A DNA stretch of 64,000 nt from Coemansia sp. RSA 487 (lineage: Eukaryota; Kickxellomycota; Kickxellomycetes; Kickxellales; Kickxellaceae). Positions 3,750 through 58,200 of this stretch are shown here, piece after piece. Made by a program: the position numbers and the translations under genes. The first letter of the stretch is position 1. Every line of letters starts with the position of its first letter. The stretch is taken from positions 37,093 to 101,092 of the forward strand of contig JANBRJ010000061.1 of NCBI GenBank assembly GCA_027577595.1, read 5' to 3'. Under the pieces are notes generated by a model. The model was not told the DNA's origin, searched no databases, and saw nothing but the letters and a program-made list of their open reading frames with translations.

Positions 3750-4931
3750 CTAGCATACAGTATAATCAACTGTAGCCGATTTAAAATAAACACCATCGAT
3801 AAGGAGAAAGAAGATCTGGGTGGCAACGACAGATGCAGTGGTGTAGGCCACAGAGCGGCGTCTACTCAACGCAGACACCTCTGCTGCAAAAGTAGACACC
3901 GTGGTCAGACAGCCACAAAAACCATCGGCCATTGCCGCCAGAACATAGCATGCGGCAGCCGACGGCAACACAACGACGCCGGTCTGCAAGATGTGGACGA
4001 TGGCTAGCACCATGGATCCCAGCACGTTTGCGGCAAGCGTGCCCAGCGGAGAGCCGATAAGCGCGGTGGGCATGTGCTGCTTGAGCCACGGGTGCGGAGC
4101 ATTGAAGGACGCCAGTCGCCAGCGGATCAGCGTGCCCACGGGTCCAAACAGCAGTGCAATGCTCACGCTGCGCGTACTGCGTGCCAGCGCGACCACAAGA
4201 ACCGCTGCCACAAGGGACGCAAGGCCGGCACCGACTAACACAAGATCCGTGGTCCGCCACCGGTCCCAGCCAAACCACCCCCGATGACCACTGGCGTATG
4301 AGCCGCCCAATAGTTTTGTGTTGATCCGGTACAGCGGGTCTGGGTCCTCGTCCCTAGTTGCGCGCAAATACCGGTTGACCAGGAGCCGCGTCTCCTCGCC
4401 CGCCATCTGGCCGAGCCGAAGCGCACCCATCGCGCACGCCATCGTCGACACAAGCACGCCCAGTCCTCCAAGAAAGTTCTTGAACCGGATATGCTGGCCG
4501 TGCTCTGTGTTGAAGAACTGCTGGTACACCAGGAGCTGCCACGACGAGAACGTCGTAATCGACCCGCACAGGCCCGTGGTGAGGCCCGTGTTGAGGGCCG
4601 GCGAGAAGCGCAGGAGCACGCCCTTTGTGCGCATGCATACACCCATGATGAAACATCCTATCATTTGCACCCACAGAAGCGCGTACGTAGGCTGCTTGTC
4701 GTATGTTAATAGCCGCGTCACATGGACGCGCACCAGCACCCCAAGCATCGAGAAGAACACGAGCGACAGAACTACAGGCTCCATGTACAGATACGCAGGC
4801 GCTGTGTGTCCGCGGAACCGGCCCTCTCCCACATACTCTTGCTGCACTGTTGCGGGCGGCTCTTCCACCGGCACTCCCGTCACCTGCGAATCGGAAAGCG
4901 GCTCATTGGCTTCAGCTATCTCACTACTCAT
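3750..4931 (-). CDS. FEX1: Fluoride exporter FEX (two CrcB domains)
   Basis: This is a plasma-membrane fluoride channel/exporter that protects the cytosol from fluoride toxicity. Bacterial CrcB/Fluc is a dual-topology dimer; the eukaryotic form fuses two copies, as here. The first copy has G64-xxx-R68 and the signature GLCGSITTFSSW (residues 120-131). The second has GTLIRW (266-271), N302 in AANVLG, and GFCGCLTTVSTF (337-348). About nine hydrophobic segments are visible, and residues 1-45 form an acidic cytosolic tail. The conserved pore Asn survives only in the second half; in the first the equivalent stretch reads QMIGCFIMG. Such halves often diverge. I start at 4931 (MSSEIAE, 393 aa); the frame also runs 41 codons upstream through poly-T leader. 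Confidence 0.9.
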   Translation of the reverse strand: MSSEIAEANEPLSDSQVTGVPVEEPPATVQQEYVGEGRFRGHTAPAYLYMEPVVLSLVFFSMLGVLVRVHVTRLLTYDKQPTYALLWVQMIGCFIMGVCMRTKGVLLRFSPALNTGLTTGLCGSITTFSSWQLLVYQQFFNTEHGQHIRFKNFLGGLGVLVSTMACAMGALRLGQMAGEETRLLVNRYLRATRDEDPDPLYRINTKLLGGSYASGHRGWFGWDRWRTTDLVLVGAGLASLVAAVLVVALARSTRSVSIALLFGPVGTLIRWRLASFNAPHPWLKQHMPTALIGSPLGTLAANVLGSMVLAIVHILQTGVVVLPSAAACYVLAAMADGFCGCLTTVSTFAAEVSALSRRRSVAYTTASVVATQIFFLLIDGVYFKSATVDYTVC

Positions 4932-5231
4932 TCTGCTGTCAGCAATTCCTGTGGCTGCTAGGCAAGCATAATTCAACAAGTGGAAAAAAAAAACAATTTC
5001 ACCAATAGAAAAACAAAAAAAAAAAAACTCTGGTCTGCCTAAAGATGGAAGCAAGATAAAAAAAAAAAGACCCTCCCCACTAGGTTTCTATTCTTTCCTT
5101 CCTTTCCCTTCCCTTTACATTGCACTTGTTTTATAAAGTACGCATTTGTAGTTCCCTTTTTATTTCAAACTCTCCCTGGTAGGAGACGCCGCGAAAGCAA
5201 AACAAAACCAGAACGAAGAGTATATGAGATA
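4932..5231. promoter_or_regulatory. Divergent FEX / CTK3 promoter
   Basis: This 300-base region lies between two divergent starts. It has long A-runs on the FEX side, a T/C-rich tract at about 5085-5120, and TATAAAG at 5132-5138, placed to serve CTK3 about 95 bases downstream. Confidence 0.5.
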
Positions 5232-9335: not shown

Positions 9336-10574
9336 CTAGCTGTTCATGGAAATGGCCATGTATCCGCGAAGATCCATGGGGCTGAGCTGCGGCTGGCCAA
9401 TGTGGTCAAAGATGGTTTTCCGCAGGCTCGACCCTGACTTTGGCCACGGCGGCGTGCATGGAGCCAGCGAAGCCGAACCGCTCTGGTCAGCTGACCCAAC
9501 TGCTGCGGAGGTTTCAATTTTAGTGCCGGGCACCTGGGGAGTTGGCGGCGTGATGAAGAACGTGGGCGCCCACGCGGCTGGCGACGGAGTGCGCTGCGCG
9601 AGGAACGACGGGCTGACCTCGCCATATGCCGAGCAATCGCTGAGGATGCCAGAGAACCCGCTGCCTCCTGGAGTCTGCGGCATGCTTGGCGACATCGGCG
9701 ACAATGTCAGACCAGCCGATGGCAGCCCGACCATCGCTGTGTTTGCTGCGTTTCCCAGCGCCAGCGCCGGCGGCCGCGAAAAGCCCGCGGGCTGTTTGCG
9801 CAGCGGTGTCGATGTGGTGGGTGGGCTGATCAGCCCTGTCGGCGCAACGCTGAGCTTGGACATCTTGCCTCCCAGCACCGGCTTCTTCTGCTTCTTTGCA
9901 GGCGCTGTCTTTTGCAGTCTGAACGTCATCGGCGGCGGCAGCGGCTGTGTGACGCTGTTTGTGTTGTTGTCGGTTGGTGGCGATGCAAGTGCAGTGGGCG
10001 CCATTGGTGCGGCAGCTGGCGTGTCCTGCTTTGTAAGCTGGAGACCAGATGGCTTGGGCTTTTTGGTCTTTCTCAGAGGGAACGGATTGTTGCTTGTGCT
10101 TACAGGCCTTTTGTCATCGTCCTTGGCTTTGCTGTTGAGGTTGCTGAGGCTGTTTATTTTCAGCGGCGACCCAACCATACTTCCACCAAACCCGTTCCTG
10201 CCAAGCGACAAGCCCTTGACGATGGGCGACAGCCCAGTGCTTCCCATCGGCGACGACACGCTTGCTGTTGCAGGGCCAGCGCTGTCCGGCTGTGTCTTGG
10301 CCTTGGCCTTGGCGACCATCAACGGCGTGGGCGGCGCCTTCTTCATTCTGCGCGACGCCAGCGTCGATGCCTGCGGGAACTGCAGCTTCTTTGCGTTGGC
10401 GGCTCCAAGCGTGGTGGTCGGCTTGATCGCCATGGGCTGGTCAAGCTTCACCCGCTTGCCTGGGCTTTGCAAAGAAAGCGCATACACCGACCAGCGGTTG
10501 CAGCCCTTTTGCCTTGGTGAGAATATGGGCCCTCTGGGTGTGGAAGGTGGTGATAGTGCGGATATCGTAAACAT
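9336..10574 (-). CDS. S/T-P-rich disordered protein, 412 aa (unrecognised)
   Basis: No domain is recognised. The protein is almost entirely low-complexity and basic, with many Ser-Pro/Thr-Pro sites (SPPSTPRG, FSPRQ, SPGKR, SPIV) and Lys/Arg-Pro patches (RKTKKPKPS), as in CDK-regulated nuclear proteins. The more ordered segments are NRWSVYALSLQ near residue 26 and the C-terminal SLRKTIFDHIGQ...SPMDLRGYMA. A plus-strand frame of similar length (9346-10602) overlaps it. I choose the minus frame because it is followed upstream by a long pyrimidine-rich leader and has the composition of a real disordered protein. No introns are needed. A cell-cycle or transcription role is only a guess. Confidence 0.6.
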   Translation of the reverse strand: MFTISALSPPSTPRGPIFSPRQKGCNRWSVYALSLQSPGKRVKLDQPMAIKPTTTLGAANAKKLQFPQASTLASRRMKKAPPTPLMVAKAKAKTQPDSAGPATASVSSPMGSTGLSPIVKGLSLGRNGFGGSMVGSPLKINSLSNLNSKAKDDDKRPVSTSNNPFPLRKTKKPKPSGLQLTKQDTPAAAPMAPTALASPPTDNNTNSVTQPLPPPMTFRLQKTAPAKKQKKPVLGGKMSKLSVAPTGLISPPTTSTPLRKQPAGFSRPPALALGNAANTAMVGLPSAGLTLSPMSPSMPQTPGGSGFSGILSDCSAYGEVSPSFLAQRTPSPAAWAPTFFITPPTPQVPGTKIETSAAVGSADQSGSASLAPCTPPWPKSGSSLRKTIFDHIGQPQLSPMDLRGYMAISMNS

Positions 10575-12842
10575 TGTGTATTATAGACAGAGAATGATAT
10601 AAAAGAATATAGATAGGAAAATGTAATGCGGGATTGTAGGATGGAGACAAGAAAGGAAATAACACGAGAGATGTTTTGCAAACTAAACCAGAGTAGAAAC
10701 TATAGTGTTGTATACAGAGGCTGGATAGAATGTAAATGTATAGAAAGATGATGAAAAACAGAAACCGATAAAGATACACCCTAACAGTACCTTGAGTATA
10801 AGGACGCTAGTGAAATTATAAGCTGCAAGGGAAAAGACAATGTGTGTGCGGTATAGAACGTACAACGAAGACACAATGGATGCAGATATATGGAAGATGC
10901 AATAAAGGCAATTTGGAATGCGAGAAAAGTGATCTTTATAAAAAGTGAAGCAACCGGCAATGAGATCTTTTATATATAAAAAAGTTGCAAAAGAACTTGA
11001 GATAGGATTGTGAAAATGGCTAATGGTGTTGGAGAAGGAAAGGGTGAAGGATAAGCAGATATGAACCAAAAAGTGCAATGTGATATGTAATGCTAGAAGG
11101 ATAAAGGTTTTACAAAAAACCAAATGTAAAGAAAAAGTTGCTGAAAAGACACAAAGGAAAAGAAATGAGATGAAATAAAAACGTGCACAGGTTGGAATGG
11201 AGAGGAGGGGTACAGTATATATGGATGAACGTGAGGGGGCCGTGCATGAGCTGTATGCCAATGCAATGGTTTTTTTTGCTTCTGCCGGTTCCAACCTCCG
11301 CTTTGCGCCTTTTCCTGCATAAGTGTGTCGTCGAGACCGCTAACAGAAGTGTATGGCGGTTTGTGTGTCACTGCGAGCATGTATAGAAAATAAGACAAAA
11401 AACTTTCAGGTTTTCATGGCAAATCGTTGTTCTCCTTGGGAAGAACTCACAACTGCCCCCCCCCCAATTTCTGAATTGAATGCTCGGTCTTTGTCTCATT
11501 CTCTGCATGACCTGGACTGGGCGTGTAAATCTCTCCTGCTGCGCGCGCAAGACACAAGAAATTATACACTAAAAATAGTGAATCTGGTGACGCTTGTCTA
11601 CGACAATCCCCGCACTCTACCTTTTATTTTTTGGAATCCCTTGCTTGTCTCAGCCAAAATAAGAAGTCTGACACACACAGCTTTTCAAAGCCAAGCCTAC
11701 AAAGAAGCCAGTTGTTTTCTTTGCAAGGAAAATACCCTTGTAGTGTCTAAAAAGGAAATCCCGCAACTGCACTTTGTTCCTTTTCCTTTCGCTCTTTGTA
11801 TACAAAGACTGCACTCATGTTTCCGGATATTGCAGGTTTCCCACAGTTGATTGGATATGCAAATTGTAATAATGCATGCCTGACACAAGCACACGCATTC
11901 CTTTGCGTTTGCTGAGTCGGTCTGCAAACGGTCCACACAAGCTTCTCCCCCAACCCTTACATGCAACATCCATTTCTACATCCCCTCTCTGCAACACATT
12001 CCAAATGTTTGTTTACCTTTTCGATCGCTGAGCCAGAATCCCGCACAGCTGCCAACTGATCTGTACATGTTCCAGGCACACACCCCCCACCATATGGCTG
12101 CATGTGTTTTCTGGAATTTCTTTTTAGATATCCAAACACGTTTTTTGGCGACCTCCGTCTTGGAATGACTCAGGGTTAGAAAAGTCAAATACTACACAAC
12201 ACAAACCGTAAACAATAGCAACAATACATGCTAAGTACAATGTACTATTTGCACGCATGTGTCCAACTCGTGCCTGTTTCATCTACTCGACGCCTCCCTG
12301 TCTTGCTGTTCCATTCATTATGATGCTTGTTTACGCCAAAAGTGTCAACAACCACAATACAATCCAAAGACAAAGCTAGCATAGGATTTTCTAATATCAA
12401 TTGCCACTAAACAATCCTACATCTCTACAAAGGACTGCTCGGACAACTGCCAGTTCCTGCTTTGAAGGCAAAATTCGTATTTCTCCTATTCTCTCTAAAA
12501 ATAACAACAACCCAAAGAAACCTACATCACATCATTGTCAGCACCTTATTCGGTATAGTAGAGAATATTCCTTGTTTCGTTTTTTTCCTTGCAAGCTATT
12601 CTCCTGGAAAAAAAACATCTATAGTATAGTAACAAGTAAGCGTTACCACACGTAAAACTCTAAACTGATTCATCGCGTTTCAGGCAAGAAAATAAACTGC
12701 AAATTGTAATCCATCTTAAAGTATATTTTGAAAAAGAAGACAGGAAAGATCTGAAGCAAGAAAAAAAGACACTTGATCCACAGAATATGGTGCTCACTAT
12801 CCAATTGGTATAATATTAAAACCAAAAAAAGAACACTCAAAC
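10575..12842. other. 2.3-kb intergenic region with long pyrimidine-rich leader
   Basis: From 10575 to about 11200 the minus strand is T/C-rich, the leader of the S/T-P-rich gene. This bias creates a spurious 203-codon frame (10683-11294). The rest is mixed sequence with a C10 run at about 11457-11466, GTAAACA-type forkhead words near 12010, 12208 and 12329, and the 3' flank of RPS27. No tRNA or protein gene is seen. Confidence 0.5.
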
Positions 12843-13735: not shown

Positions 13736-14516
13736 TTTGACTATAGTGTGGTGAAAAAGCCGGTTTAGATGGATGCAAAATAAGCAAAAAGAAACAGATA
13801 TTTAGTAGTTGTGCTAAATCGGTTGAAAAATTGCAAACGTTGTGGATGGATGCGTCTGGTGTAGTATCCTTTTCTAAACTTTTCCAAAATGATGGATGCG
13901 ACGTACCAGTATGTATATAAGAGTCGAGGTAAAAAAGCGAAAGGAGTGAATCCAAAGTTGCACTCTGCTTGCTGGGTGAGTATATTCTTGCGCCAGGCGA
14001 TTTTTCGTCACTGAAAGAGTGTGCTTTTTCCGTGGCTGCCACACAATCATGAAAAGTGCCCAAAAGAGTAATGGATTCGAAAAAAAACATTTAATCACGT
14101 GCTAACCTGTAAAATAAAAGCACTAAATTATGCAAATCATTTACGATCAGCAGATCAAAATATGGACAATAAGCTAGGCGCAAAATTCATTGGAAAGGAA
14201 TCCTATAGTTGTCGAATAGAATGGCTCATAGTTTTACATGATCATTTACGATCGGACAGAGGCAGCCTCTGTTTCCACCAAATACTTGCACTTTTTAGCT
14301 TTCCGCTGTTTCAGTAATGTAGTGCTAGTGCGCGATCATGTAGTCGATTTGGACCAAACATCTCCAGGCTATTGAACATGCTTGAATATGTGCCATCACA
14401 GAATCGTCTCCAAATAAAACTGATATACAGCAGATGACATGTAGAAAGTTAAACACTCATGTAACAGGATTGGGGAGGGGTGGCGGTTTATTGGATCACA
14501 ATATAAAAATGGACAC
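13736..14516. other. Intergenic, RPS27 promoter side
   Basis: This lies between the RPS27 start and the stop of the TOM20-SET gene. It is AT-rich. The repeated phrase CATTTACGATC occurs near 14138 and 14241. No gene is recognised. Confidence 0.5.
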
Positions 14517-16454
14517 TTAGTTTTCGTCTTTGGAAGACTCGTGCTCCGTAGTTTCTGCCTTCTCGTTTTCCTCAGCCGTTGCTTCCACTTTCTCCTCTTT
14601 GTCTGCTACAGCAGCAAGATCGGCCTTGCACTTGTCACATTCGCAGGTAAAGCGGTACGAGTTCTTCAGAAGCTTCTGCCTGGTCTGAACATCAAGCGAT
14701 GCATCGACGAAAGAGACATGCAGCTCGTCACCCTTTGCAACGGGCTTGAGCGTCTTGATCGCTGCTTTGGAGGTGTTGTCAGGGAACACAATCTGTACGT
14801 TAGGATCGCAGCTATGTGTAACATGCGACGATATCAAGTAGAGCGAAATGCCAACGGGGCTGGCCGAATGGTCGTCCCTGATAGTGTCCGATACGTGCGT
14901 AGCTTCAGTCTCCGCAGGGACATCGACGTCCTGGGCATTGTGGACGGCAAACGCGTTGTAGTCAAGCTTTCCCTTGAGCATCGTATAGCGTTCGCTGGTG
15001 ACAAACTCGGTAAGCCCAGGGACGCTGCTGCTCATAAGCTCGCCAAGCTTCTTCAGCACCTCTGCGTCGGCGGCCGATGGGACCAGCTCCAAGTAGCGCA
15101 TGCACTCCAGGTGCTCCCAGGTCGTGTATTCGTCAGCATCGGAGTCACCGGCGCCGTCCGATCCGCTGAGAGCGCCCAGAGCACGTGCAAGCTCCTTCTT
15201 CTTTTCGCGATCGACCAGGATGCCAAAGAACTTTGCAATCAGGATCGGCGCTAGCTCGTGTGTCTCCTTGACCAGTTCAGCAAACTGGCGTGCTTGAGCG
15301 CTGTCGCTCTTGGTGCACAGGAACTGGTGGTAGGCATCATAGGCGTCCTGGCGGCATTTTTCCGAGCAGTAGACTGCTTTGTGGCACTTGTCGCACTCGA
15401 GTGCATTGCTGCTGCTGCTGCCCTTGATCTCCTTTGTCTCTTCGGATTTTTCAGACCCGGAAGTGGCGTTATTCTCAGAAGCGTCCTTGAACTCGTCCTC
15501 TGTTTCAGCAGTGTTTCCCTCTGATTCCTGAGCATCCTCGTTTTTCTTTGCTTCGATCAGAGTATCGGTCTTTTCCCCCTCTACCTCCTTATCCTCTTCG
15601 GACTTCTCGGTAGCGTTTTGCTCTTCGCTGTCCTCCTTTTCAGCAGCTTCAGGATCGGATTTTTCTTCCGAGCGTGGCTCTGCGCTAGGAATAGACTTCA
15701 TACAGTGGTCGCAGAACTGGCCGTTTTGTGCGCGTGGCAGTAGCGTGGAAACCACAGCCTCCTCTTCATAGATGGTTTCGCCAGCATCAAAGTCCTTAGT
15801 CGAGAACAACGCGCGGTTGGGAACAATAACGTCGCTACCATTATCCGATTCGGCAGATAAGGGCTTCTTTGCCTTTGTCTTACCTTTGGGCTTTGCATCT
15901 GCCTTGTCCTTTTCAGCATTGTCTGTCTTGTTCTTGTCTTTAATCTGGACGTTCTTGCCCTTGGCCGGGAAGACATCAAAATAGCGCAACTGCTTTTGCC
16001 GGACCTCCTGGGCCATCATGGCCATCACTAGCTTGAAAACCTCGGGAGGTGTGGTCTTTTGGTAGATCATTACTAGCTCAACTGGATTCGGATACACCTT
16101 CAGCGCCTGGTAAAAGTGGCAGGCAGCCGACGAGTATGCCGAAGGTCCAGCGCTGCACAGAGTTTCTCCCTTGGACACCTGGGTCATGAAGAATTGTTCC
16201 TTCTCCTCAGGCGAGGCTGGAAGCTTATCTTTTGCAACTTCGTTCAAAAGCTCCATCGCAATATCGTTGATCGCATCAGGCGAGGTCTTATTGACATCGT
16301 CAGCCTTCTTCTCAACCTTCTTGCGATCGCGCTTCAGCTTGCGCCGGAACTTGCGGTCGTGGCGGCGCTTATAGTCGAAGTAGGCGATGTAGCCCAGTCC
16401 CGCAACAGCAGCGGTAACTGTGGCAGCAACAGCAATCGTCTTTCCGGTAACCAT
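14517..16454 (-). CDS. TOM20: TOM20 receptor fused to a SET/MYND (SMYD-type) methyltransferase
   Basis: One uninterrupted 645-codon frame joins two known proteins. Residues 1-150 are fungal TOM20, the outer-membrane receptor for mitochondrial presequences: N-terminal anchor (about 8-25), FDYKRRHDRKFRRKLKRDRK, SPEEKEQFFMTQVSKGE, then the TPR-like YQALKVYPNPVELVMIYQKT. Residues 209-610 are SMYD-like. They contain SET-N (NRALFSTKDFDAGETIYEEE), a MYND finger (C248, C251, then C354, C357, C363, C367, H376, C380), SET-C with THSCDPNV (546-553) and GDELHVSFVD, and a post-SET cluster C604-x-C606-xx-C609. An acidic ~100-residue insert splits the first MYND cysteine pair. If expressed whole, the methyltransferase would sit on the cytosolic face of mitochondria. 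Substrates are unknown. Confidence 0.88.
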   Translation of the reverse strand: MVTGKTIAVAATVTAAVAGLGYIAYFDYKRRHDRKFRRKLKRDRKKVEKKADDVNKTSPDAINDIAMELLNEVAKDKLPASPEEKEQFFMTQVSKGETLCSAGPSAYSSAACHFYQALKVYPNPVELVMIYQKTTPPEVFKLVMAMMAQEVRQKQLRYFDVFPAKGKNVQIKDKNKTDNAEKDKADAKPKGKTKAKKPLSAESDNGSDVIVPNRALFSTKDFDAGETIYEEEAVVSTLLPRAQNGQFCDHCMKSIPSAEPRSEEKSDPEAAEKEDSEEQNATEKSEEDKEVEGEKTDTLIEAKKNEDAQESEGNTAETEDEFKDASENNATSGSEKSEETKEIKGSSSSNALECDKCHKAVYCSEKCRQDAYDAYHQFLCTKSDSAQARQFAELVKETHELAPILIAKFFGILVDREKKKELARALGALSGSDGAGDSDADEYTTWEHLECMRYLELVPSAADAEVLKKLGELMSSSVPGLTEFVTSERYTMLKGKLDYNAFAVHNAQDVDVPAETEATHVSDTIRDDHSASPVGISLYLISSHVTHSCDPNVQIVFPDNTSKAAIKTLKPVAKGDELHVSFVDASLDVQTRQKLLKNSYRFTCECDKCKADLAAVADKEEKVEATAEENEKAETTEHESSKDEN

Positions 16455-17403: not shown

Positions 17404-18558
17404 TTACGCAGTGCTGTCTGGAATGCACGCACATGCTTTTCTTTCTCCGCCGCATGCGGCAGATGAGCATGGGGATGCACCAGCGTGTTTCAGCCGCCGG
17501 TCGCGCATAGCCTGGGCCTTCTCACGCAGCCGTTCAAAGTGCACTGGCTCCACAGCTTTCCCAACATTGTGCACGGTAGGCTCAGAAGCAAGGATCTCCT
17601 GGGCATGGCGTGCCGACTTGGCAATCCCAAGCTTGGGCAACCCGCGCTCCAAGCCTTCAAGCAGCACGCATGCCTTGCACAGGGCGTTAGACGAGATGTA
17701 TCCGCACTTCTCGCACTGCGTCAGCGTGGGCAGCTGGACGTCCGACGCCACGCGCATTGCCTCACCCGAGTGGATGATGTCGAGAATGGCCGATGGGCGG
17801 ACAAACTCCAGATCCTTGAGGAACTCACGCGCGTAGCCGCGGTATGCGTTGGGCGAGTACGTGCACTCTGTCGAGAAGTAGTCGAGGCGCCTGAGATACG
17901 CGTACATGACGATCTCCTTCTCGTACGCGTACTTGAACGGCTTTGACCGGGCAATGTATCCGTCGCCGGCAGTAGTGATCTCAGTGCATCGGCTCAGGCG
18001 CGGGATGTCTCCGCGGAACAGATTCATCAGAATTGTCTCGGCAACATCGTCTGCATTGTGGCCCGTGACAATGTGGTCGAGATCGAGCATCAGTGCACCG
18101 CGATCGAGCGCCTGGCGCCGGAACACGCCGCAGAACGTGCAGTTGTTTTTGCGCCCCACTGTTTCCACGATGGCGTCCATCGACCATCCATACAACTGCT
18201 CGTACGATACAATGAGTAATGGCAGCCCGTACTGCTCCTTGTTGCGCTTGACTGTCTCCAGCGAATCATCGCGGTACCCCGAGATGCCCTCGTCCACAGA
18301 GAGGAGATACAGCTCAAGCCCGTAGTCATGCCGTTCATTCAGCGTCTTCATCACATACGCCAGCACCGTCGAGTCCTTGCCACCTGATGCGCCAATGCCG
18401 ACGCGGTCACCCCGCCTGAACAGCTTGCTCTCGACTATGGTGTTGTGGATCTCCGTTTCAAACACGTAGTAGAAGCATTCATTGCATATGCGCTGTCCAG
18501 TCTTGGGCCGCCGCAGGATAGCCCTTGCGTCGTGGCATATTTCACACTTGCGTGGCAT
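17404..18558 (-). CDS. NCS6: Cytoplasmic tRNA 2-thiolation protein 1 (CTU1/NCS6)
   Basis: It thiolates the wobble uridine (mcm5s2U34) of tRNA-Lys, Glu and Gln in a complex with Ctu2/Ncs2, using sulfur carried by Urm1. Visible features are an N-terminal zinc site (C5, C8, C25, C28), the PP-loop SGGKDST (58-64), the catalytic C140-xx-C143, [19 protein letters not shown] (167-184), and a C-terminal zinc site (C282, C285, C294, C297). The start is ATG 18558 ([10 protein letters not shown], 384 aa), which matches the family. The frame runs 36 codons further upstream, but that part is leader. Residues 360-380 form an extra Cys-rich tail. It is divergent from the Zn2Cys6 gene, with a 1.2-kb shared upstream region. 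Confidence 0.93.
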
Positions 18559-19767
18559 TTTCCTTCGTATTGCAAATGAGCTGGATTTCGATGTGGGATG
18601 TTGCAAGATATGCGCTGATTGTGTTGTGCTGTGTGGTGACTCAAATATACAAATATCCCTGTCCACTCGATCAAAGTCGGACGTTTATTTTCTTGCTGGA
18701 GAGATCCAGAGAATGTCGAGCGATGTGGCAATATAAACAAAGCAGTAAGCGGAGAATTCGCGCTTTGAAGGCAGCAGTAGATTATTAAAAAGCGTTCGGG
18801 AAAACAAGGGACTATAGGCGCTGGTTGTGCAAATAGCCAGCTATGGCCAGCCAGAAAATATCCTTGCGCACCTGCTCTTGTGTACAGGATTATGGTGCGT
18901 GTGTGCCCTATCAGAAATTCGCCTGCTTTTCCTTTTGGCAAACCCGTGCGGCAATTTCCTTGGTCTGACCCGTTGTTCCAGAGAGATTCATGGTTTGTGA
19001 AAATAACAGGACCACGCAAGAGCGAGCTCTGCCTTTGCTTGTTTCTCTCTCGAAATGGGCACATGCGCTACTGTGGCACGTCTTTACGCAATTAATCGGC
19101 TGCAGTCTGCGGCACTGGTCACCAAAGTCTCCTCCGCCTTTTCCTCCCTCACCACCAAACACAATGCCCAAGCTTTGGCAAATGCCTCGACTTTTCCGCT
19201 CCACACAAGGCAACCGGCGGACGTTGTCTCACACGCTCAGAAGTAATGAAAAATGGATGGAGGCGGCCCGGAATGACAAGCAGCAAACAAGGGAGAAATG
19301 TCAAACAACGGGGAAATTTCACACCTGGACAATGATCAAAGCGCCTCCCCTCCCCACTGGGGGTGCTCATCACCCACCCATTGCTCCCTCCGTGCACGCC
19401 CTGTGGACGCTTTTCCTCCGGCTGATGCGCTCCTGTCGGGAATTTTTGCCGCTGCCATTGCCAAACATCCTCCCCCATCTTTTTTCCCACTCCCAGTCAT
19501 GCCAAAAAAAGTCCCAGAGTTCTGCCCCGCCCGCATTGCCCTCTCCCTCTCTGCGATGTTTAAATAAGCTCATGAGCGGCTTGTTATTAAAAACCAGCGC
19601 TATTTCCCCCTGTCCTCAGCTGAGCTATTATTTCTCTAACTATTTCCCTTTCTCCTCTTGCTCTGCACAAACTTTAGGTAGCATCCCATCTTTTCCTTTT
19701 ATATTGCTTGTGTCTGGTTTCCTATTCTTATATTTTCCACATAAACACAACATTGCTTGTAAATAAT
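18559..19767. promoter_or_regulatory. 1.2-kb divergent CTU1 / Zn2Cys6 upstream region
   Basis: No gene is supported. The half near 19300-19620 is C-rich on the plus strand, with CCTCCCCTCCCCACTGGGGG at about 19347 and several CCACCC/CCCCT words, candidate C2H2 zinc-finger sites. The last 150 bases are a T/C-rich leader for the Zn2Cys6 gene. Confidence 0.5.
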
Positions 19768-42758: not shown

Positions 42759-44891
42759 TCAGTTGCTATTCGGGAATAGCTTGTTGAACATGTCATTCCA
42801 TACATTTTGCTCCATAGCCTGGCTGTCTGGCGACCATTGCGGGCCACTGACATCCAGCTCCGATGGTGTCGCAACTGGAGACGTTGGCTGGCTCCTTCGC
42901 ACTTCGTCAAAGACCTGCTTCAGTGTCGCTACAGTCGCCGATACATGTCGCTCCATATCTGGCGACGTGTGAGCTTCTCCAAGGCTTCTGTCTGACTGAT
43001 CATTACTCGCGCCCAGCTCTACGTTATGTTCAAGCAAAGTTGACAGACTACCGGCCGCCTTCTGCTGGGATGTTGCCATGGCAGGCATAGTCAGCGACTC
43101 GCGAAGGCTCTGCTTGCTGCTGCTGCTGTTATATGTGTCGGACAGCGAACGGGTCATTCTCACCGGTGGTGCCGCTTTGATGGTTGCATTGACGGCCGCG
43201 TCGTGGCAGCCAGCAGACGCCGGTTTCTTCTTGGCCAGCGACTCTGGCGAAAACGAGCTTAGGTCGCGCGAGCACGAGACAACCAGGCTTGGCGGCGGGC
43301 TGGACAGCGACTTTGATGTCTTGCGCTTGGGTTTGGCTTTAGATCCAGTCGCACGAGACAGTTCTTGCAGCGATGTGCTGCCCGGGTTCTTCTGCTCTTG
43401 CTGCTGAAGCAGCTGCTCCTCGCGTTCCAGCCTCCTCTGCTTCTGGCGTGCCAGCAGGCGCTTTTTCTTTGCAAAGTATACCTCGCGGGCTTTGTTGGCC
43501 AGCTCGTGGAACTCTCGTTTGACCTCTTCGGGCTCCTCGCGCCAGAATTTGCCAATCACGCCGGACGCAGTCTCAACGCTAATTCCTGGCCGCTCGGCAC
43601 GCAGCTTCTCGTTCTTCATCCTCCTGTACAGAATAAAGGCGTTTGGCGGCTTGCGCAATGGCTGGTCGTCATCGCCGTCTTCGTCTTCTGGCAGCAGTTT
43701 CATTTTAGTACCCGTTTCCTTGTCGGCGCTGGCAGCGCTGGTAGCGGCACTGATGCTCTTACCGTTGTTGCTGCTGCTGGCTGTGCTCATATTGTCATCG
43801 TTGTTGCCATCTCCATCGTACCCATCGTCCACATCCATTGTGCTGTCGCCATCATCGCTCCTCAGCGCCTGGATACGCGAATTCGATGTATCTTGCCTTG
43901 TAATTGATCCTGTGTCTGGATATGGCATCGAGTTTTGCTTGCGGGCCATGGACCGTGAGACCTTGCGCTGCGCAGAAGTGGATACCTTCCTTGTGTGTTT
44001 GCTACTAGCGGATCCTGCCAGGGACAGCTGTGGCGACGGCACGGCCTCCTCTTGCGTAGTAGAAGGTGGGAGAAGCGAGCTGCCAAAGTCGTGCGAATTG
44101 GTGTAGGATGAGGACAACGACTGGGAAGGCGATGACATGAGGCCAAGATTTCCACTGATTGCCGCGGGTGTGCTGGGAATCGCAGAGGGCATGGATGCTG
44201 TTGTACTTGGCAACGGGAACCCAGGCAGAGAGGCCATGAACGACGCTGCTGCGTTTGACTGGTCGTAGAGGCCCTGGCTTGGAACTGTGGTGAAGAGCGA
44301 GGATTCGTAATACGACATGTTTGGTGCTACCTGTGAGGACGAGAACGATTCATCTGGCCCTGGGCTCAAAGGCTCGCTTGTGGTGCTGAACTGGTCGAAT
44401 GGCGAAGGACCAAGCGGGGCCATTGGTGGGCTCGTTGGATTGCTGGTGTACGGAGGCGACGCAGGTTCCATTGGCTGGTACCGAGAGCCCAGCAAACTAG
44501 AACCCAAGGACCCAAATGCAGGCGGGAGCCGGACGTCATGGACAATAGTGCTGGTACTGGAGGCCAAAGAGCTCAAACTCCTGGGCGTGTCCGGCGGCGA
44601 CTGTGCCTCTCCTCTGAGAGACCGAATGTGCTGCGGCAGGTTCTCTGCAAGAAACGTCCGTACGATGGTGACCATGTGTTCTGGCACCAGAATTGGCTGG
44701 AATCCCTGGCGCACCTCTAGATACCTCCGGTTGTCATACTTGATCAGGCTCAGTGGCGGCTGGCCACCCGGCTTTGGGACGTGCTGTTCCCGGCGTATCT
44801 CCAGGACGCGCATCTGCTGGATCAATGCCAGCTCCTGGACTGTGACCTGGTCCAGTGTCAGGGTTGGCTCTTCTTGTGACATGGTTGGCAA
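42759..44891 (-). CDS. HMG-box (MATA_HMG-type) transcription factor 1, 710 aa
   Basis: This is a sequence-specific HMG-box regulator of the MATA/Sox-like class. The box covers about 413-480: LRKPPNAFILYRRMKNEKLR, ISVETASGVIGKFWREEPEE, REFHELANKAREVYFAKKKR, with the Pro-Asn-Ala-Phe-Ile start typical of mating-type and Ste11/Rfg1-like factors. A basic coiled segment (LLARQKQRRLEREEQLLQQQ) follows. Residues 1-95 form a separate ordered region (TVQELALIQQMRVLEIRREQ, RRYLEVRQGFQPILVPEH); the linker 100-400 is Ser/Pro-rich and acidic. Its upstream region is 8.3 kb long, the largest gap in the window. Homology to a sex-determining gene cannot be decided from the box alone. Confidence 0.87.
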   Translation of the reverse strand: MPTMSQEEPTLTLDQVTVQELALIQQMRVLEIRREQHVPKPGGQPPLSLIKYDNRRYLEVRQGFQPILVPEHMVTIVRTFLAENLPQHIRSLRGEAQSPPDTPRSLSSLASSTSTIVHDVRLPPAFGSLGSSLLGSRYQPMEPASPPYTSNPTSPPMAPLGPSPFDQFSTTSEPLSPGPDESFSSSQVAPNMSYYESSLFTTVPSQGLYDQSNAAASFMASLPGFPLPSTTASMPSAIPSTPAAISGNLGLMSSPSQSLSSSYTNSHDFGSSLLPPSTTQEEAVPSPQLSLAGSASSKHTRKVSTSAQRKVSRSMARKQNSMPYPDTGSITRQDTSNSRIQALRSDDGDSTMDVDDGYDGDGNNDDNMSTASSSNNGKSISAATSAASADKETGTKMKLLPEDEDGDDDQPLRKPPNAFILYRRMKNEKLRAERPGISVETASGVIGKFWREEPEEVKREFHELANKAREVYFAKKKRLLARQKQRRLEREEQLLQQQEQKNPGSTSLQELSRATGSKAKPKRKTSKSLSSPPPSLVVSCSRDLSSFSPESLAKKKPASAGCHDAAVNATIKAAPPVRMTRSLSDTYNSSSSKQSLRESLTMPAMATSQQKAAGSLSTLLEHNVELGASNDQSDRSLGEAHTSPDMERHVSATVATLKQVFDEVRRSQPTSPVATPSELDVSGPQWSPDSQAMEQNVWNDMFNKLFPNSN

Positions 44892-47800
44892 AGTGGCACC
44901 TCTATCCCGCTGATGCAGTACAAGCAGGAGTCAGTGCTAAACACAGGGAGGAGAAATGTTAAAATGTATGTATGTGTGTGTGTGCTTGTCACTCTGCTGC
45001 CTTGATTCTGTCGTGGAAGAAAGCTGCTAAAACGAAGCAAAGTGAAGGGAGAGAAAAAGCTCTATTGCGGAGTTTGAATGTGTATATTGTTTCTGGACAG
45101 CAAACGTGAATTGGTTATGCACCCTGACAGTGTATTAATATGTCCTTTATCTTTTTCGAGACGCAACGTCTTTGAGACTTTATCTGTGCACAAGCGCAAA
45201 AAAAATAAAGAAATAGCGTAATGCTTTGTAAAGGAGCAATATACCAAGACTACAGAGAGCGATACGCGCAATGCCAGAGTTACGGGTGTGGTTTATTACG
45301 AAAAAAGGGCTTTTTTAAACTAAATACAATGGGTTGGAGGTAAAATGGTAAAAGATAAAAGAGTATATAAATATAGGATAGTTGTTGTCCACACAAGGCA
45401 ATGCGTGTTTATAATAAGGTATGGCCAAGCAAATGAAGAAGGCTATTTTCAGTGCGAAAAATAAGAGAATAAAACCCGACATATCCAACAACGATGAGGA
45501 CGACTCCATCCTCTTTTTATTTAATATGCAGTGTCGTTATTGCCTTTGCTGAGACTGCCCCTCTTTTCTGGGCTAGGTCACCTTCTGCTCGCTGGAAAGG
45601 GCAGGCGAAGAATAAACCCACCGCGTCTCTTGCCTTGTCGGTAGCCCAAGAAAACATGCAGGCGTAGCGAAAGGGTGGCAAGGAACGACGCGCTCTTGTG
45701 TCGAATAAGAGTATAGGAAAATGCCAACTTCCTTGCAGCACAGCAAGCGTTATGCACACAATCACTGAGGGGTCACACATCCGGGCATGGGGGGAGGTTG
45801 GTGAACATGCAATTGTGAACAGAGTTCGAACATTAATCCACAACCGCCGCCAAGTGCATGGCACCTTCCGATGATTGCGAGAGGAATGAGCGGCGAATCT
45901 TTTTGAACGAACTCCAAAACCGGCGACGATAGAACAGTAAAAAAGCCTGTTCCTGAATAGTCGAGTGCAAAAACAAGGAGAGGGGTGGGTAATGCATTGG
46001 ATGAAAGGGGGGTTGCGTCCAACCGCCAACGGCTATTCGCTTGCAAGGCGCCTGCATATCTGCCAGTTGGTCGTTATAAGCTTGAGAATTCGCCTTCCCT
46101 GTTCTTGCACTTCCATCGGCTAACCCGACGGAGGTACAGGCGTGATCGCTGTTTCTTTGTTGACTGTATGTATCCCTTTGTGTGCATTGTTTATTCTCTT
46201 CTGAACCAGTGCCAAATTAGGAAAGGCGAAGGGATATCCTCTCACCACGCTTTACAAATTCGAACATCTCTTAGATTCCATGCTGGAAATAGCATGAAAT
46301 AACCCAATTTGCAGTGCTCTGCCAGTTATTCACTTGAATAGATGTTATTTGCAAATGGGCGGCAATGTTTCTGCGGTCACTCCTACCCGCATATACCATC
46401 CTTTTTTCGGAGCAGCACTTGCCAACTCGCCATTCGCAAACAAGCGCATCTCCAACTAGCAAACAAACGCCCTATTATCGACGAGCACGGCCGTCTCAAA
46501 ATCCAAACAATGAAAGACGGCTTATTCCAGGCAATAATCAAAGGTATGTGTGGAATAGACAAAAGTGTCACGTTTTAACCATGCCCATGTCTTTTGTCAG
46601 TGCATCTTAGACGACGCTGTGTGCGCCGCTTGGCCACTTTCTTTTGTGCACGCAATCACGCAAGAATGAAAGTTGAGGCAAGTGGATAAAGAGGCTTTCA
46701 TTTTCTGGGTTTCATGACCAGATGATACAAGAAAAAAGTCTCATGTTTGCATGTCCTGCACGCTCTAATCCGCAAGATATGCACTGAAACTCCAGGCAAA
46801 CAACAATCAGAGTCTAGCAGGGCGGATCTTGTGGTTGGGATATATGCGAGTTGGAAAGACCAGCGTGTGGTTGTCACGTTCTCCTTTAGATTCTGTGGGA
46901 CATCGAGATTGTGTACGGTGCTCTCGGACATGCGCCTTTACGACAGAAGATACTGTTAGTGTTGAGCTTGTTGCAAGCAAACAGAAAAAGAGGTTGCTTG
47001 CTGTTCACAAGTTCCATGTCTGTTTCTCCTCCTGCCTCTTGTTTCAATCGGGCATGCTCTTACATTTCGAATCATAGTCCGCAGTGTGCATGTACTCCGA
47101 CCTTCATCCACGGAATTAAGTACCAACAATAGAAGAATTGATAGACCATGCCTCTGTTATTTTTTGTCCGTATATGCCAGCTGCATTTTGTCATGTCAAA
47201 GGCTTCCGAAACAATACCCTATTGTCTGTGTGCAGAATCTCGCTGTTCGCAAAAAATTGGGATGTGTCCGTTCTTCCAGATTGCCATTTGCTTTTGCTGT
47301 ACGCTATCTTACTCGTGGTATGTATTGCTGACTGCAAAAGATTATGAATAAACAAACCAACATTCCGTAAAAGCCTATGTGCACATCGTGAAATACGACG
47401 AATTCACAAATGCTCACAGTAAAAGCAAGCAGTATTTTTGAACGTCAAAAGAAAATACTTGTGTTATTCTATTAAAAGAGCGTTTTGGCCATGAACATAA
47501 CAATCCTCGTATGTGAAAGCGCACATTTTTGCATGCAAATGACCTGAGCAACAAACGCTAAGTTTGCATCGCTAATATTAGAGAATACCTATTTGGGTTA
47601 TTCGTAAAACGCAACATCCCCCTTTCCATGTTGCAATTTGCAAGTCTACATGTAAGCATTCATTATAGGGTATTTCCATTATTTAAATTTATCCTTGTTG
47701 CAGCTGCACTGTCCGTGTTGCAGAATAAAAACAAGCACTTTGGCAACATCCGTAAACAGGCATCGGTGCAATGGAAAAATAATAGAGGCATTTTTTGTTT

Positions 47801-53170: not shown

Positions 53171-55240
53171 TTAATTGTGACGAGGGATAGAATAAGTAGG
53201 CAGAGCTATCGTGTTTGATGCGTCTATGATCTCGATTTCCGGAATAGTTGAGAGTGCCCCGGCCAAACTATTTGGAGTCGTATTTGCCCTGCTTCTATTT
53301 GCAGAATGGGATGTGCTGCTGGCCAATTCGAGCCCTTGGTGTCCAGGTAGAATAGGAAACTGGTTTCTTATGGTAGCACCTGAAACCAGTTGCTGCTGTT
53401 GCTGATGTTGATGTTGATGTTGATGCTGATGCTGATGCTGATGCTGATGCTGTTGCATATATAATAGCGGCTGTGGATGCGATTGCAATTGTGGCGTGGA
53501 GGAATTGCTGAGCGCCGCATATAACGCATTATTGGAAAGCTCATCGGCAGATGGTGCCATGTTGTTGATTGTGTTTAAAAGCGATGATATTTCTTGCCAC
53601 GATTGCTGTACATGTTCTGGCGAATGTGAGTAGGTTGCAGAAAGCGTTGGGGTATGCTGATAATGGCCTGACTGTTGCTGGCGCTGATGCTGTATCTGTA
53701 TCTGTTGTTGCTGTATCTGTTGAATTTGGTTGTGAGCATTCGACATATAGTTGATCATGCCGGGATGGTAGATACTTGGATGAGGATACATCTGCATTTG
53801 TATTTGCGGTTGCGACAGACTCGGACTAGATGCAATGTAGGAATTCACTAATGGCGATGCAGACACTGCCGCAAGCGGGGCAGTCGAGGAAACAGCGGAT
53901 ATTGTTTGCTGGTTGCCATAGTCAATAGACACCTTGGCCGGCTGGGCAGAGTTCTCGGGGGAAGAGACAGCATTTGGATCTGCTGATATAATCGTTGGCT
54001 CGTTGAATAGAGGCGATGTGTGAACAGCATCTGCAGGGGTGACAGTGGGCATTCTGGAAATAAAGGATGCAACATCAAACCCGCAGACTGTGGAATCGCT
54101 CGTCCCAGCAGACAACGAAGCCGGTGTTTCATTCGGTTGGCTAATCTTGGCGCTGTAGTTGCTGTTCAAATCGATGTTTGGAACAGCGGCAGAACACTGC
54201 ACATTCTGTGTTTCGCGCTTGTCAGACGAGCTGTCCGATACCTTTAGCTTTTTGTTATCCTGTTTTGCTAGCTCCTTATAAATCTTAATAGCCCGCTTGT
54301 ACCGCAAAGTGTCTTCTGCAGCCAGTTCTTTGTACATTTCTTTCGCGTGGTCGGGCATTGCGTTCCACTCGTCAGCTGCAACCCCAGAAATGTTTTTGGC
54401 TTTTAGGCGCTCTCCTTTGGCGTTCATGCGCTTATGAAATTCGCAGCGGAAAAAGAAGAATGAGTTGCGTGGCTTTTTGGGCCTCTCCATCTCGACACCA
54501 TCAGGATCCTCAAGCGGCCGTTTCCGTGAGCCAGAGCGGCGTTTCCTTGTCTCTACCGCCAAAGGATGCTGCTGTGGCTGCTGGCTGCTGCGGCCGGTAT
54601 TGGTGGACGGTGCCTCGCTGTAAACCTGGCTCCCCAAATCATCGACGTCTTGACCGTCGTCCTCCGAGTTGAAATAACCAACAGGCGTCCCAGTACTAAC
54701 CACATAGTCGCGTGTTTCGCCCTCAGGAGACGCCTCCTCAAGGACGGCAGGCGCCATCATCCACCCAACAGAGAAAGGATCGCCGGGATGTTCAACGCCC
54801 AGGACATTTACCCCGCTCTGCGTTGGCTTATTTTGTGTGGCATTGGAGCTGGGGAGCCTGATAAATGAGCCGCTTTCCCCTGGCACAGAAATAGCGCTTT
54901 CTAGCCAGATGCTGGGCGTAGATGAGGCCTGCTGCGTGTCTTTTGCCACAACTGCTGGGATATGTGCTGCAGCGCTGATTGAGGCGCCTGCATTTGTGAC
55001 TCTCTTGTCATTGTCGCGTTTGGCATTGTTCGTCGGCGCCAGAAGGAAGGTTGTGATGGTGTCGTTCGTCGGCACAGGAATAGTGCTAGGGATAAGAATC
55101 AGCTGCATGTCGGACGGTATTAGAACGGTCGTTTTTGTGTAGGTGACCCCGGGTCTTTGCGGAATGGAGCTCTGGTCGATATCATCGCCAGTTAGCGGAT
55201 ACTCCGCTGTCACCAACGTCTGCTGCTGCACAGAAGACAT
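53171..55240 (-). CDS. HMG-box transcription factor 2 with poly-Gln/His tracts, 689 aa
   Basis: The HMG box is at about 252-325: ERPKKPRNSFFFFRCEFHKR, KAKNISGVAADEWNAMPDHA, KEMYKELAAEDTLRYKRAIK. It is preceded by a basic NLS-like run (RKRRSGSRKRP). This is a MATA_HMG-type DNA-binding domain clearly diverged from that of HMG gene 1. Residues 1-250 are mixed and acidic. The C-terminal half is Gln/Ser/Pro-rich with QIQQIQQQQIQIQHQRQQQ and a His-Gln repeat at about 595-620, typical of activation domains. A probable 224-base leader intron lies upstream at 55294-55517. It sits on the same strand as HMG gene 1. Confidence 0.87.
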   Translation of the reverse strand: MSSVQQQTLVTAEYPLTGDDIDQSSIPQRPGVTYTKTTVLIPSDMQLILIPSTIPVPTNDTITTFLLAPTNNAKRDNDKRVTNAGASISAAAHIPAVVAKDTQQASSTPSIWLESAISVPGESGSFIRLPSSNATQNKPTQSGVNVLGVEHPGDPFSVGWMMAPAVLEEASPEGETRDYVVSTGTPVGYFNSEDDGQDVDDLGSQVYSEAPSTNTGRSSQQPQQHPLAVETRKRRSGSRKRPLEDPDGVEMERPKKPRNSFFFFRCEFHKRMNAKGERLKAKNISGVAADEWNAMPDHAKEMYKELAAEDTLRYKRAIKIYKELAKQDNKKLKVSDSSSDKRETQNVQCSAAVPNIDLNSNYSAKISQPNETPASLSAGTSDSTVCGFDVASFISRMPTVTPADAVHTSPLFNEPTIISADPNAVSSPENSAQPAKVSIDYGNQQTISAVSSTAPLAAVSASPLVNSYIASSPSLSQPQIQMQMYPHPSIYHPGMINYMSNAHNQIQQIQQQQIQIQHQRQQQSGHYQHTPTLSATYSHSPEHVQQSWQEISSLLNTINNMAPSADELSNNALYAALSNSSTPQLQSHPQPLLYMQQHQHQHQHQHQHQHQHQQQQQLVSGATIRNQFPILPGHQGLELASSTSHSANRSRANTTPNSLAGALSTIPEIEIIDASNTIALPTYSIPRHN
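53404..53453. repeat. GAT-G(C/T)T hexanucleotide repeat (His-Gln tract)
   Basis: About eight ATGCTG/ATGTTG units on the plus strand encode alternating His-Gln in HMG gene 2. A length-variable coding microsatellite is likely. Confidence 0.85.
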
Positions 55241-58200
55241 AGGGACAATGTGATATGCCGCAAAAGGGGTGGCTTTTACAGAAGGTCGAATGACTAGAAA
55301 TGTATGAGAAATAATAGGATATCAGGTCGCTACCGCTTGTAAGTAAATCAAACCAAATGGGAAGAAAAGAAACTGCCAGCAACGCTTGTCAGATGGAGTG
55401 AAAAGACGGGATAATGGCTATATAAAAGTTGACCAAGGAAAAATAAGATATAAAACAGATGTAATGTAACTAAACAATCAATTCGTTGCGATTCGGTAAG
55501 TTGAGGAGAGGCCTTACCTTTGTTCCTTTTATATGAAAGACAAATAGGGGAAATTGAACTTGTCAAAAAGAAAAGTCCTGCGCGTAATGTAACAAATGTA
55601 ATAGATGCAGAACAAGTACAATTCCAATTGCTCTCGATGCTATCCAAGTATTGATTCAAAAAGCGTTAGCAAAGCAGTATATAATTAACACTATTGATAT
55701 AGATGTGGAAAGGGTACACGAGCAATGCGATGGTCTGGTCGCATGTAGAAATAGCAAGACGGTTTGCAATGACAATGTTTTAAAATAGAACGGTCTATTG
55801 TCATTAAAGACGGCAGGGATGTTTACAGAGACTATTTAAAATGCCTTGGAATGTAATAGGCAATAGATGCGAGGAAGAAAAGAAAAATGAAAAATAGGAC
55901 CGTGGAGGAATAGGCTTTTACGGTGCGTGTGTGTTGTTATTAAACCTAAAGTTTGGAGAAAGACAAAGAGAACATGGAGGAAGTGGGGAGGTGGAGAGGC
56001 TTAATGTTTAAGCAAAAATGGAAATAAAATGATGAGAGGAAAAAGCAGAAAGATGATTCTTTGCCAAGTGCATTGCCTCACTCCCCAAAAAAACAAGTAT
56101 ATTCAGGAAACCAATACTGGCGATGGTGGACAAAAGGGGGAAAAGGAGGGTGTTTATCACCTTGACAGTTTTTTAGTTTGCTTCGAGTGGAAAGAGGAAA
56201 GGTGAGCTGCGAGTTCAGAGCAACGTGCTTTTGCTTGCGGAGCAGAGAGGGAGAAAGAGCAAAGAACAGATGTTGGGTGGTCATAAAGGGACGCGTTGGT
56301 CAAAGGGAAGCTGGCGGGTGACAAAGAGTCTTTTTTTTTTTTGCTTTTTGAGCAAACAAGTTGCAAGAGCAAAGGCGCAAGAGAAGCTGCATGCCATGGC
56401 AGATACGGAAAGAAGGCATTCAAGCGTCTGGCATGCCAAACATTTACTTATTTCGACGACGCAACAAAAACGACAGAGTCAGGTGACTGAGGAAAATTTC
56501 GAACAAAGGAGCGGCGGTGACCATCGCCAACATAATCGCTGCCCGTGGTGTTCGCTGGATAGCCTGCAAATTTTTCTTCGTCATCAAGCGTCGCAGGCTC
56601 CTTCATCGGACTCGCCTGCCAGAATTTAATCTCGGCACATAGATGAAGCGTCGGGCATAGAGGGGGTGTAGCCAAGACCCAGCTTACCTGCCCCCTGCAT
56701 CCTTTTTCCGTTTTGCCTGAGCATTATGCAGCGGTCATAACCATTGCTGCGCTTACTCGATTGTTTGTGAATACACAAGCTCTCTGCTTCGCCCATACAG
56801 GATTTTTGCGTCCGGAATGCGCCATAGGTCTGTCATAGAGCACGATCGCCGTAAAAGCAGAAAATCCAGTGAGTGCCCACTCTGGTCACAGCTTTCAATC
56901 GACTTGGCATGGTATCTCAGTCTGTACACTGTGCTGGCTGTAGACGCAGGAATCGCACGACATGCGCAAAATGCAATCCAATGTTCGAACGGCGAGAAAT
57001 GAAAATTTGAGGCTTTGTTATTTTTTCATCAATTACTCGCTGCTGATAATCCCAATGTATCTATTAAAATTTCCCTTTTAAGGAATCGCCCTGCAAGTGT
57101 GTTTGCATAACTGTGTGAATCCCTCTTTTCCAGAATGATGTCCTTTGTTGTTTTCACTGAGGTTTGGCACAGGAGGGCAAGGAAAACCGCATGACAAAAA
57201 CTTTCTCTTGCCAATTCGGCCCACTTGCCTTGGATGAGCAGCATTGCAGTCATTTCTCAGTATTGTTGCTCTTTTTCATTCAACTTGCAAAAGTGTGTTT
57301 GTGGGGTTCCTTTCAGAATATGGCAGGTATTAATTTCCATTGCACTAGACAAAGGAGAAAGGCAAATTCACTTCTTTCTTGCTTTGAAACAATACATGCT
57401 CTCAACGTAAGCAAGTACTCTATATTTAGCACTAAACAAAATGTATGCTCAAGATTGGTATTGATATGGAGTGTATTTTGGCTGCCTTTTTATTTATGCC
57501 CTACTTCTTCACACACAAATATTTGGCTAAGGTATCATATCGGTAGCGATTCCTTGGGTTTGGACAGAACGGAATACTAGGAAATTATTCGATTTTATCA
57601 GATCAGGATTTGCATCTATGTATTGCGGATACCACTAAATCCTCGCATATATTGAGGGGGGATCATCAACAGGTAAATCCATGATGAGCTATTTGAAGTG
57701 CTGATCCAGATGTGCTTCCTTGGCCATGTTATGAATAAAATAAAAACGCTTTGGCGCTCTTAATTTTTGATTTGAAAGAAGAAAACCGGTCTGGAACAAT
57801 AGATGCTAAATATATTCTAACTCACCTCACACTGCATATATATGTACACTGCTAAAGTGTGTGTTTACAATAGTTTAAAAATACAGACATGGTCAAATAT
57901 CCTAATTTCATTTCAATGACAACCCATGTGCTATTTTTTGCGTATTGTTTGGTGTTACTGCATTTGGGTGATAATAAATCTGACAAATTGAAATACCAGA
58001 CAGTTTTATTGTGGTGTAGATACAAAAACACTGACAATGTTTAACACGCCCATCATCCAAACTGCCTAATTAGAGTAAAAAAGCCCCTCCCCACGACTAA
58101 TTGCTGTCTTACCAAGAAATACGATTTGTGATTTTAGCAATTGTCTTTCTGTTGCAATATTTCCAACATGGATTTCAGGAATTGCATGCATATTGATCGT

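Follow-up and report, generated by a model that had tools for sequence, protein, structure and literature searches.

What is a SET/MYND module of the SMYD lysine methyltransferase type doing on a mitochondrial import receptor, and is it still an enzyme? The question is raised by a gene of the fungus Coemansia sp. RSA 487, which lies on the reverse strand at 14517-16454 of a 64,000-nucleotide stretch (contig JANBRJ010000061.1, positions 37,093 to 101,092; hereafter, the window). One unbroken frame of 645 residues, a single exon, there joins TOM20/MAS20, the receptor of the translocase of the outer mitochondrial membrane (TOM), to a split SET/MYND of SMYD type. An earlier note on this DNA had read the gene as a single-frame fusion carrying a methyltransferase that ties protein import to methylation. 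Our analysis upholds the fusion and argues against the enzyme: the gene probably encodes a working TOM20 with a pseudo-SMYD lobe that would be retained as a docking or binding platform, methyl transfer having been lost.

All three domains are recognized by Pfam above their respective cut-offs (MAS20 at residues 13-144, SET at 214-581, interrupted by a long insertion, and MYND at 349-380), which bears out the single-frame fusion. The MAS20 domain is full, scoring 136 bits against a curated cut-off of 27 over profile positions 2-131 of 132; the TIGR00985 match (133.9 bits) falls under that model's cut-off of 163.55. The N-terminal anchor helix and the basic neck of a TOM20 are both present, and the closest solved structures by sequence are Tom20 of the Chaetomium TOM holo complex (E-value 3e-28) and human SMYD3/SMYD2. 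Structure comparison matched the receptor-domain fold, aligning Chaetomium Tom20 (9i7s_K) over residues 19-154, and in the structure model the SMYD-like fold begins immediately past the last TOM20 helix. The SMYD layout, a SET domain split by a MYND finger and followed by a post-SET segment, is likewise present; the C-terminal lobe of SMYD1-3, resembling tetratricopeptide repeats (TPR), is absent, the structural matches stopping at residues 277-305 of the SMYD chains, after which there is only an acidic tail. No GTRNGY splice donor occurs anywhere within the open reading frame (ORF), so that the splice signal for two separate proteins envisaged in the earlier note finds no support. Since the gene lacks a consensus donor, only the long TOM20-SMYD form is expected to be made. 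Coding-like composition is maintained across the junction. Homologues from many genera have this junction in common, which rules out a sequencing error as well as a chimaeric gene.

In this fungus the fusion seems to serve as TOM20, since it is the only MAS20 match in the organism's own assembly (17.8 Mb, 184 contigs), where it stands beside one TOM22 gene and a TOM70-like frame of 603 residues (463 bits, below the model cut-off of 757). A second, unfused TOM20, for which it had been suggested to look, was not found in the assembly. Loss of TOM70 as an explanation is ruled out by the TOM70-like frame, even with its score below the cut-off. A wider search, aimed at short TOM20 proteins, yielded 440 matches, the best 120 of which include seven classed as fragments running into the junction (P0150-P0155 and P0158). 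All four rows named Coemansia among these 120 are partial and continue into the junction, and none of the 120 is a complete unfused TOM20 named as Kickxellomycotina. The remaining 113, where named, belong to Mucorales, Basidiomycota and Ascomycota, many rows bearing no name and one (P0211) an incomplete organism name.

Searches for the combined architecture in fungal proteomes, as the earlier note had proposed, found it widely. In a first search, 40 of 46 matches carry MAS20 plus SET and/or MYND, the other six being five models marked partial and one protein without MAS20 (P0046). A profile search retrieved 146 proteins, among which at least the best 120 all carry MAS20, with SET or MYND precomputed in all but P0115, P0136, P0137, P0141 and P0149; a fresh Pfam scan of 78 members found MAS20 and SET in every one and MYND in 52. 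By name, the fusion proteins come from Coemansia and its allies, Harpellales, Dimargaritales, Zoopagales, Basidiobolus, Mortierellomycota, Glomeromycota, Mucoromycota, Blastocladiomycota and Agaricomycetes. They span the Kickxello-, Zoopago-, Mortierello-, Glomero-, Mucoro-, Blastocladio- and Basidiomycota, in lineages that, apart from seven taxa looked up, are those to which we take them to belong. The architecture is also present in two distant proteins from metagenomes (P0044, P0045), and no Ascomycota are named among the fusion matches listed (best 120 of 146). Some database entries label the fusion genes histone-lysine methyltransferases, and one SET5, names that are probably misleading. 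Rather than a local oddity, the fusion is hence an old and widely conserved architecture, and one already in print: a single sentence in the Group 25 passage of a survey of fungal SET genes (J Fungi 2022; PMC9692433) describes MAS20 upstream of SET, not found in Ascomycota, which is by description the architecture of the window protein. That passage gives neither function nor catalytic residues, and "TOM20" appears nowhere in the main text of the survey. Among the papers listed by searches of the open-licence PMC literature, no other was judged relevant to the fusion as a TOM20 or to its active site, although subscription papers may have described it; context on Tom20 is given in part of PMC12305020. 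The fusion as such is therefore already known, from annotation and one survey. What is new here is that it is the sole TOM20 found in this genome, that its active site is degraded and that mushrooms probably possess a splice switch.

The case against a working enzyme comes from residues whose importance is established in SMYD proteins. Activity of SMYD3 is abolished by mutating G15, G17, F183, C186, E192, H206, Y239 or Y257 (as given in part of PMC3136521), and Y239F in SMYD3 or Y240F in SMYD2 kills activity (PMC1524980, likewise in part). With equivalences taken from a phmmer alignment and the family alignment, six of the nine SMYD3 positions compared are replaced in the window protein: the SAM (S-adenosylmethionine) site glycines G15 and G17 by N213 and A215, C186 by H505, E192 by P533, the Asn of the NHSC motif (N205) by T546 and the catalytic Y239 by F582. 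F183, H206 and Y257 correspond to F502, H547 and Y600. The proposal of a working methyltransferase that links import to methylation is thus not borne out, and the enzyme looks dead in the window protein. Residue counts across the family are based on 137 of its 149 proteins, with 12 rows set aside as partial or without MAS20. Among these 137 fusions, N205 is kept in 7, and G15, C186 and E192 in only 1, 3 and 2, respectively, at positions aligned with less certainty than the NHSC and Tyr columns. H206 is kept in 105, and positions 183 and 257 are aromatic in 116 and 105. The Y239 position holds Tyr in 85 and Phe in 50, and G15, N205, H206 and Y239 occur together in no fusion row.

As a control, all 13 other SET loci of the same genome were read: the Asn of the NH motif is kept in 10 and a Tyr at the catalytic place in 12. 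One locus (L012) shows no clear motif, and another (L007), for which the part that was read stops short of the Tyr position, has RRSC, the motif described for yeast Set3, a SET protein said in part of PMC9692433 to be inactive since its NHS became RRS. Set3 resembles the fusion in having retained a SET domain after loss of the NHS motif, but it belongs to another SET family and acts in a histone deacetylase complex, not at mitochondria. A different kind of variation is seen in at least four species of Mortierellomycota with two fused copies (P0059/P0073, P0063/P0091, P0049/P0077 and P0052/P0068), one type having SHSC and a Phe in the catalytic position and the other mostly MHSC and a Tyr, a difference that suggests divided roles for the two copies.

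Short forms of TOM20 in other fungi were placed by means of a TOM20-domain tree of 60 rows picked from 269 proteins. Among Basidiomycota the two forms are intermingled, the tree requires 8 fused/unfused switches, and pairs are formed by fused Marasmius with short Paramarasmius (support 100/92), by two Tulasnella (100/98) and by Auricularia with Exidia (100/99). An ancient pair of fused and unfused paralogues is ruled out, uniting the 19 unfused rows costing 311 log-likelihood units (approximately unbiased test, p-AU 1.4e-122); joining the 8 unfused Basidiomycota rows alone costs 179 (p-AU 3.9e-69), both groups having been chosen after a quick first tree showed interleaving and not planned beforehand. 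Other SMYD genes served poorly as outgroups for rooting the SET part, their branches being very long and L011 falling among Basidiomycota; a single origin of the SET part is suggested by the shared architecture and junction rather than by a rooted SET tree.

Near the point at which short and fused proteins diverge, 38 of 113 short rows carry D/E-V-S (by a pattern search that missed or misplaced the site in at least 4 rows), V-S being the residues encoded by an unspliced GTNAGN donor. A loose SS..W tail follows in 35 of the 38, and the stricter PPS[ED].SS..W tail is found in 27 of 116 rows. D-V-S also stands at the divergence point in 4 of 11 fused Basidiomycota models (P0138, P0142, P0144 and P0145), the sole cases among the 149 proteins tested. 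Since the full short-form tail leads directly into the SET part in P0142, P0144 and P0145, and their close relative P0128 jumps from LD to VKDRVEGYY, the tail would be part of a single gene model, placed after TOM20 and before SET. Taken most simply, these protein models point to alternative splicing, by which one mushroom locus would give rise to a short TOM20 as well as a TOM20-SET. The short matches listed (best 120 of 440) name none of the 11 Basidiomycota species that have a fused model. In Mucorales the short TOM20 is a separate gene, paralogous to the fused copy: four species (Apophysomyces ossiformis, Circinella minor, Rhizopus microsporus and Hesseltinella vesiculosa) are named in both listings, and in the tree the short rows from this order group as a single clade (98/81) within the Mucorales group.

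How, then, should the lobe be read? That it works as a lysine methyltransferase tethered at the mitochondrial surface seems unlikely to us, given that the Phe seen at residue 582, which replaces the catalytic Tyr in 21 of 28 Kickxellomycota rows, is the change that kills SMYD2/3 (PMC1524980 and PMC3136521, in part), and that five further equivalents are lost in the window protein. Several points nevertheless weigh on the side of activity and against a pseudo-enzyme. The G17 position is Gly in 81 of the 137 fusions; the catalytic Tyr, the His and the zinc cysteines are kept in many rows; N205, H206 and Y239 are combined in five (P0028, P0029, P0100, P0104 and P0143); C186 and E192 adjoin an insertion, where the alignment is less sure; and one control locus (L013) reads QHNC, without the Asn yet with the Tyr. 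Some family members may hence be active, and SAM might possibly be bound through an unusual glycine loop. It must be added that the uniqueness of this TOM20 derives from one draft assembly, searched without intron modelling, and that the scaffold role and its partner are what we infer.

Two other accounts we hold to be less probable still, and about equally so. According to one, the long frame is made, but TOM20 and the SET protein are then released from each other by cleavage or in some other way. A short TOM20 is indeed enough in Ascomycota and mushrooms appear to produce both forms, but the window ORF contains no GTRNGY donor, the junction is conserved, the SMYD-like fold starts straight after the receptor, and the short matches listed (best 120 of 440) include no complete unfused TOM20 named as Kickxellomycotina, the four Coemansia rows being partial. 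The other takes the lobe for a decaying, functionless passenger, held only by sharing a gene with an essential receptor. Besides the lost active-site residues, this would fit the zinc sites: the four post-SET cysteines are complete in none of 26 Mucorales and none of 3 Harpellales rows, and of 32 rows from Basidio-, Blastoclad- and Glomeromycota, none has a complete second MYND site, while 31 keep the first. The fold of the Mucorales fusions nonetheless seems to be kept, although the Phycomyces model was built from an alignment in which some relatives do have a post-SET, and so leans on them. Moreover, conservation of the lobe within Kickxellales is roughly on a par with that of TOM20, whereas spacer, insert and tail drift; the I-SET region holds 13 of the 35 columns past residue 160 that are conserved in at least 85% of rows, across phyla; and Mucorales keep the lobe alongside a separate short TOM20, though free to drop it.

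We therefore retain the reading of a TOM20 with a pseudo-SMYD lobe, the conserved lobe being probably a binding or scaffold module. The protein would sit in the outer mitochondrial membrane as a working TOM20 beside TOM22 and TOM70, its SMYD lobe no longer transferring methyl groups but retained because of its shape, which would offer the cytosol a platform for docking or peptide binding adjoining the presequence receptor; the acidic insert and tail would add negative charge and could draw basic presequences. The architecture would be old in the fungal kingdom and shed or optional in Ascomycota, mushrooms and Mucorales. More tentatively, and with slightly more doubt than confidence, it may be postulated that the ancestral fungal TOM20, going back at least to Blastocladiomycota and terrestrial fungi, had the lobe built in and was freed of it by lineage-specific routes: Ascomycota and some lineages of Basidiomycota would have lost it altogether; in Mucorales the gene would have been duplicated and one copy cut to a short form, the fused copy later losing its post-SET; and mushrooms would splice the transcripts of a single locus alternatively, into TOM20-SET and a short TOM20 that ends in a conserved tail of its own. 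The lobe might then be an unrecognised regulatory module of TOM in most non-ascomycete fungi.

Features of the TOM20-SMYD gene, in window coordinates
Feature	Position	Strand	Basis
Whole gene, TOM20-SMYD fusion ORF, 645 residues	14517..16454	-	ORF, Pfam scan
N-terminal membrane anchor helix, residues 4-32	16359..16445	-	helix 4-32 in structure model; Pfam MAS20 starts at 13
Basic neck, residues 28-60, net charge +10	16275..16373	-	charge count
TOM20 TPR-like presequence receptor domain, residues 60-150	16005..16277	-	Pfam, sequence and structure match
Conserved junction, residues 151-180, YF.vFPp..(M)NV motif, entering first strand of SMYD fold	15915..16004	-	alignment, structure match
N-SET half, residues 206-240; SAM-site GxG reads N-R-A (213-215)	15735..15839	-	family alignment
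First MYND half, C248/C251	15687..15725	-	family alignment
Acidic disordered insert inside MYND finger, residues 257-346, net charge -21	15417..15686	-	charge count; model confidence (pLDDT) <50 over 279-340
Second MYND half, residues 350-383 (C354, C357, C363, C367, H376, C380)	15306..15407	-	Pfam, alignment
I-SET helical region, residues 384-500	14955..15305	-	alignment
C-SET half, residues 531-585: THSCDPN (T546 for Asn), SFVD (F582 for catalytic Tyr)	14700..14864	-	alignment
Post-SET, residues 586-612; zinc cysteines C604/C606/C609 retained	14619..14699	-	alignment
Acidic C-terminal tail, residues 613-645, net charge -8	14520..14618	-	structure match, charge count
AATAAA polyadenylation-like signal, 24 nucleotides past stop	14487..14492	-	sequence

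Directly upstream of the fusion and on the same strand lies a PP-loop/zn-ribbon_14 gene (17407-18666), presumably CTU1/Ncs6-like. A model from Coemansia RSA 1836 (P0034) joins MAS20 with zn-ribbon_14, which hints at a conserved neighbourhood. A CrcB-domain gene, which we take to be a fluoride channel, is located about 9 kb from the fusion on the same strand (3753-5087), and in an Ambispora model (P0071) TOM20-SET runs into a CrcB domain; an old gene neighbourhood or chance are both possible. Elsewhere in the window, two HMG-box genes about 8 kb apart (42762-44930 and 53174-55321, both on the reverse strand) could be mating-type candidates, and two opposite-strand frames of 414 and 420 residues, neither with a Pfam match, overlap almost completely at 9336-10602.

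Knowledge of the TOM complex comes mostly from Ascomycota and animals, where TOM20 is a small receptor. The anchor, neck and TPR-like domain of such proteins (PDB 9i7s from Chaetomium; 7vc9, 1om2, 2v1s) align with residues 1-150 of the window protein, but they stop after the receptor domain, whereas here the chain continues with a lobe of more than 400 residues. That lobe in turn differs from SMYD1/2/3 in lacking their C-terminal lobe, in its replaced SAM-site and catalytic residues and in a MYND split by an acidic insert. An architecture common to many non-ascomycete fungi merits functional study. If a pseudo-enzyme lobe of this size does stand at the import pore in most other fungal phyla, the textbook TOM20 would be a reduced form within the fungi, and import would have an unknown partner or regulatory step awaiting discovery.
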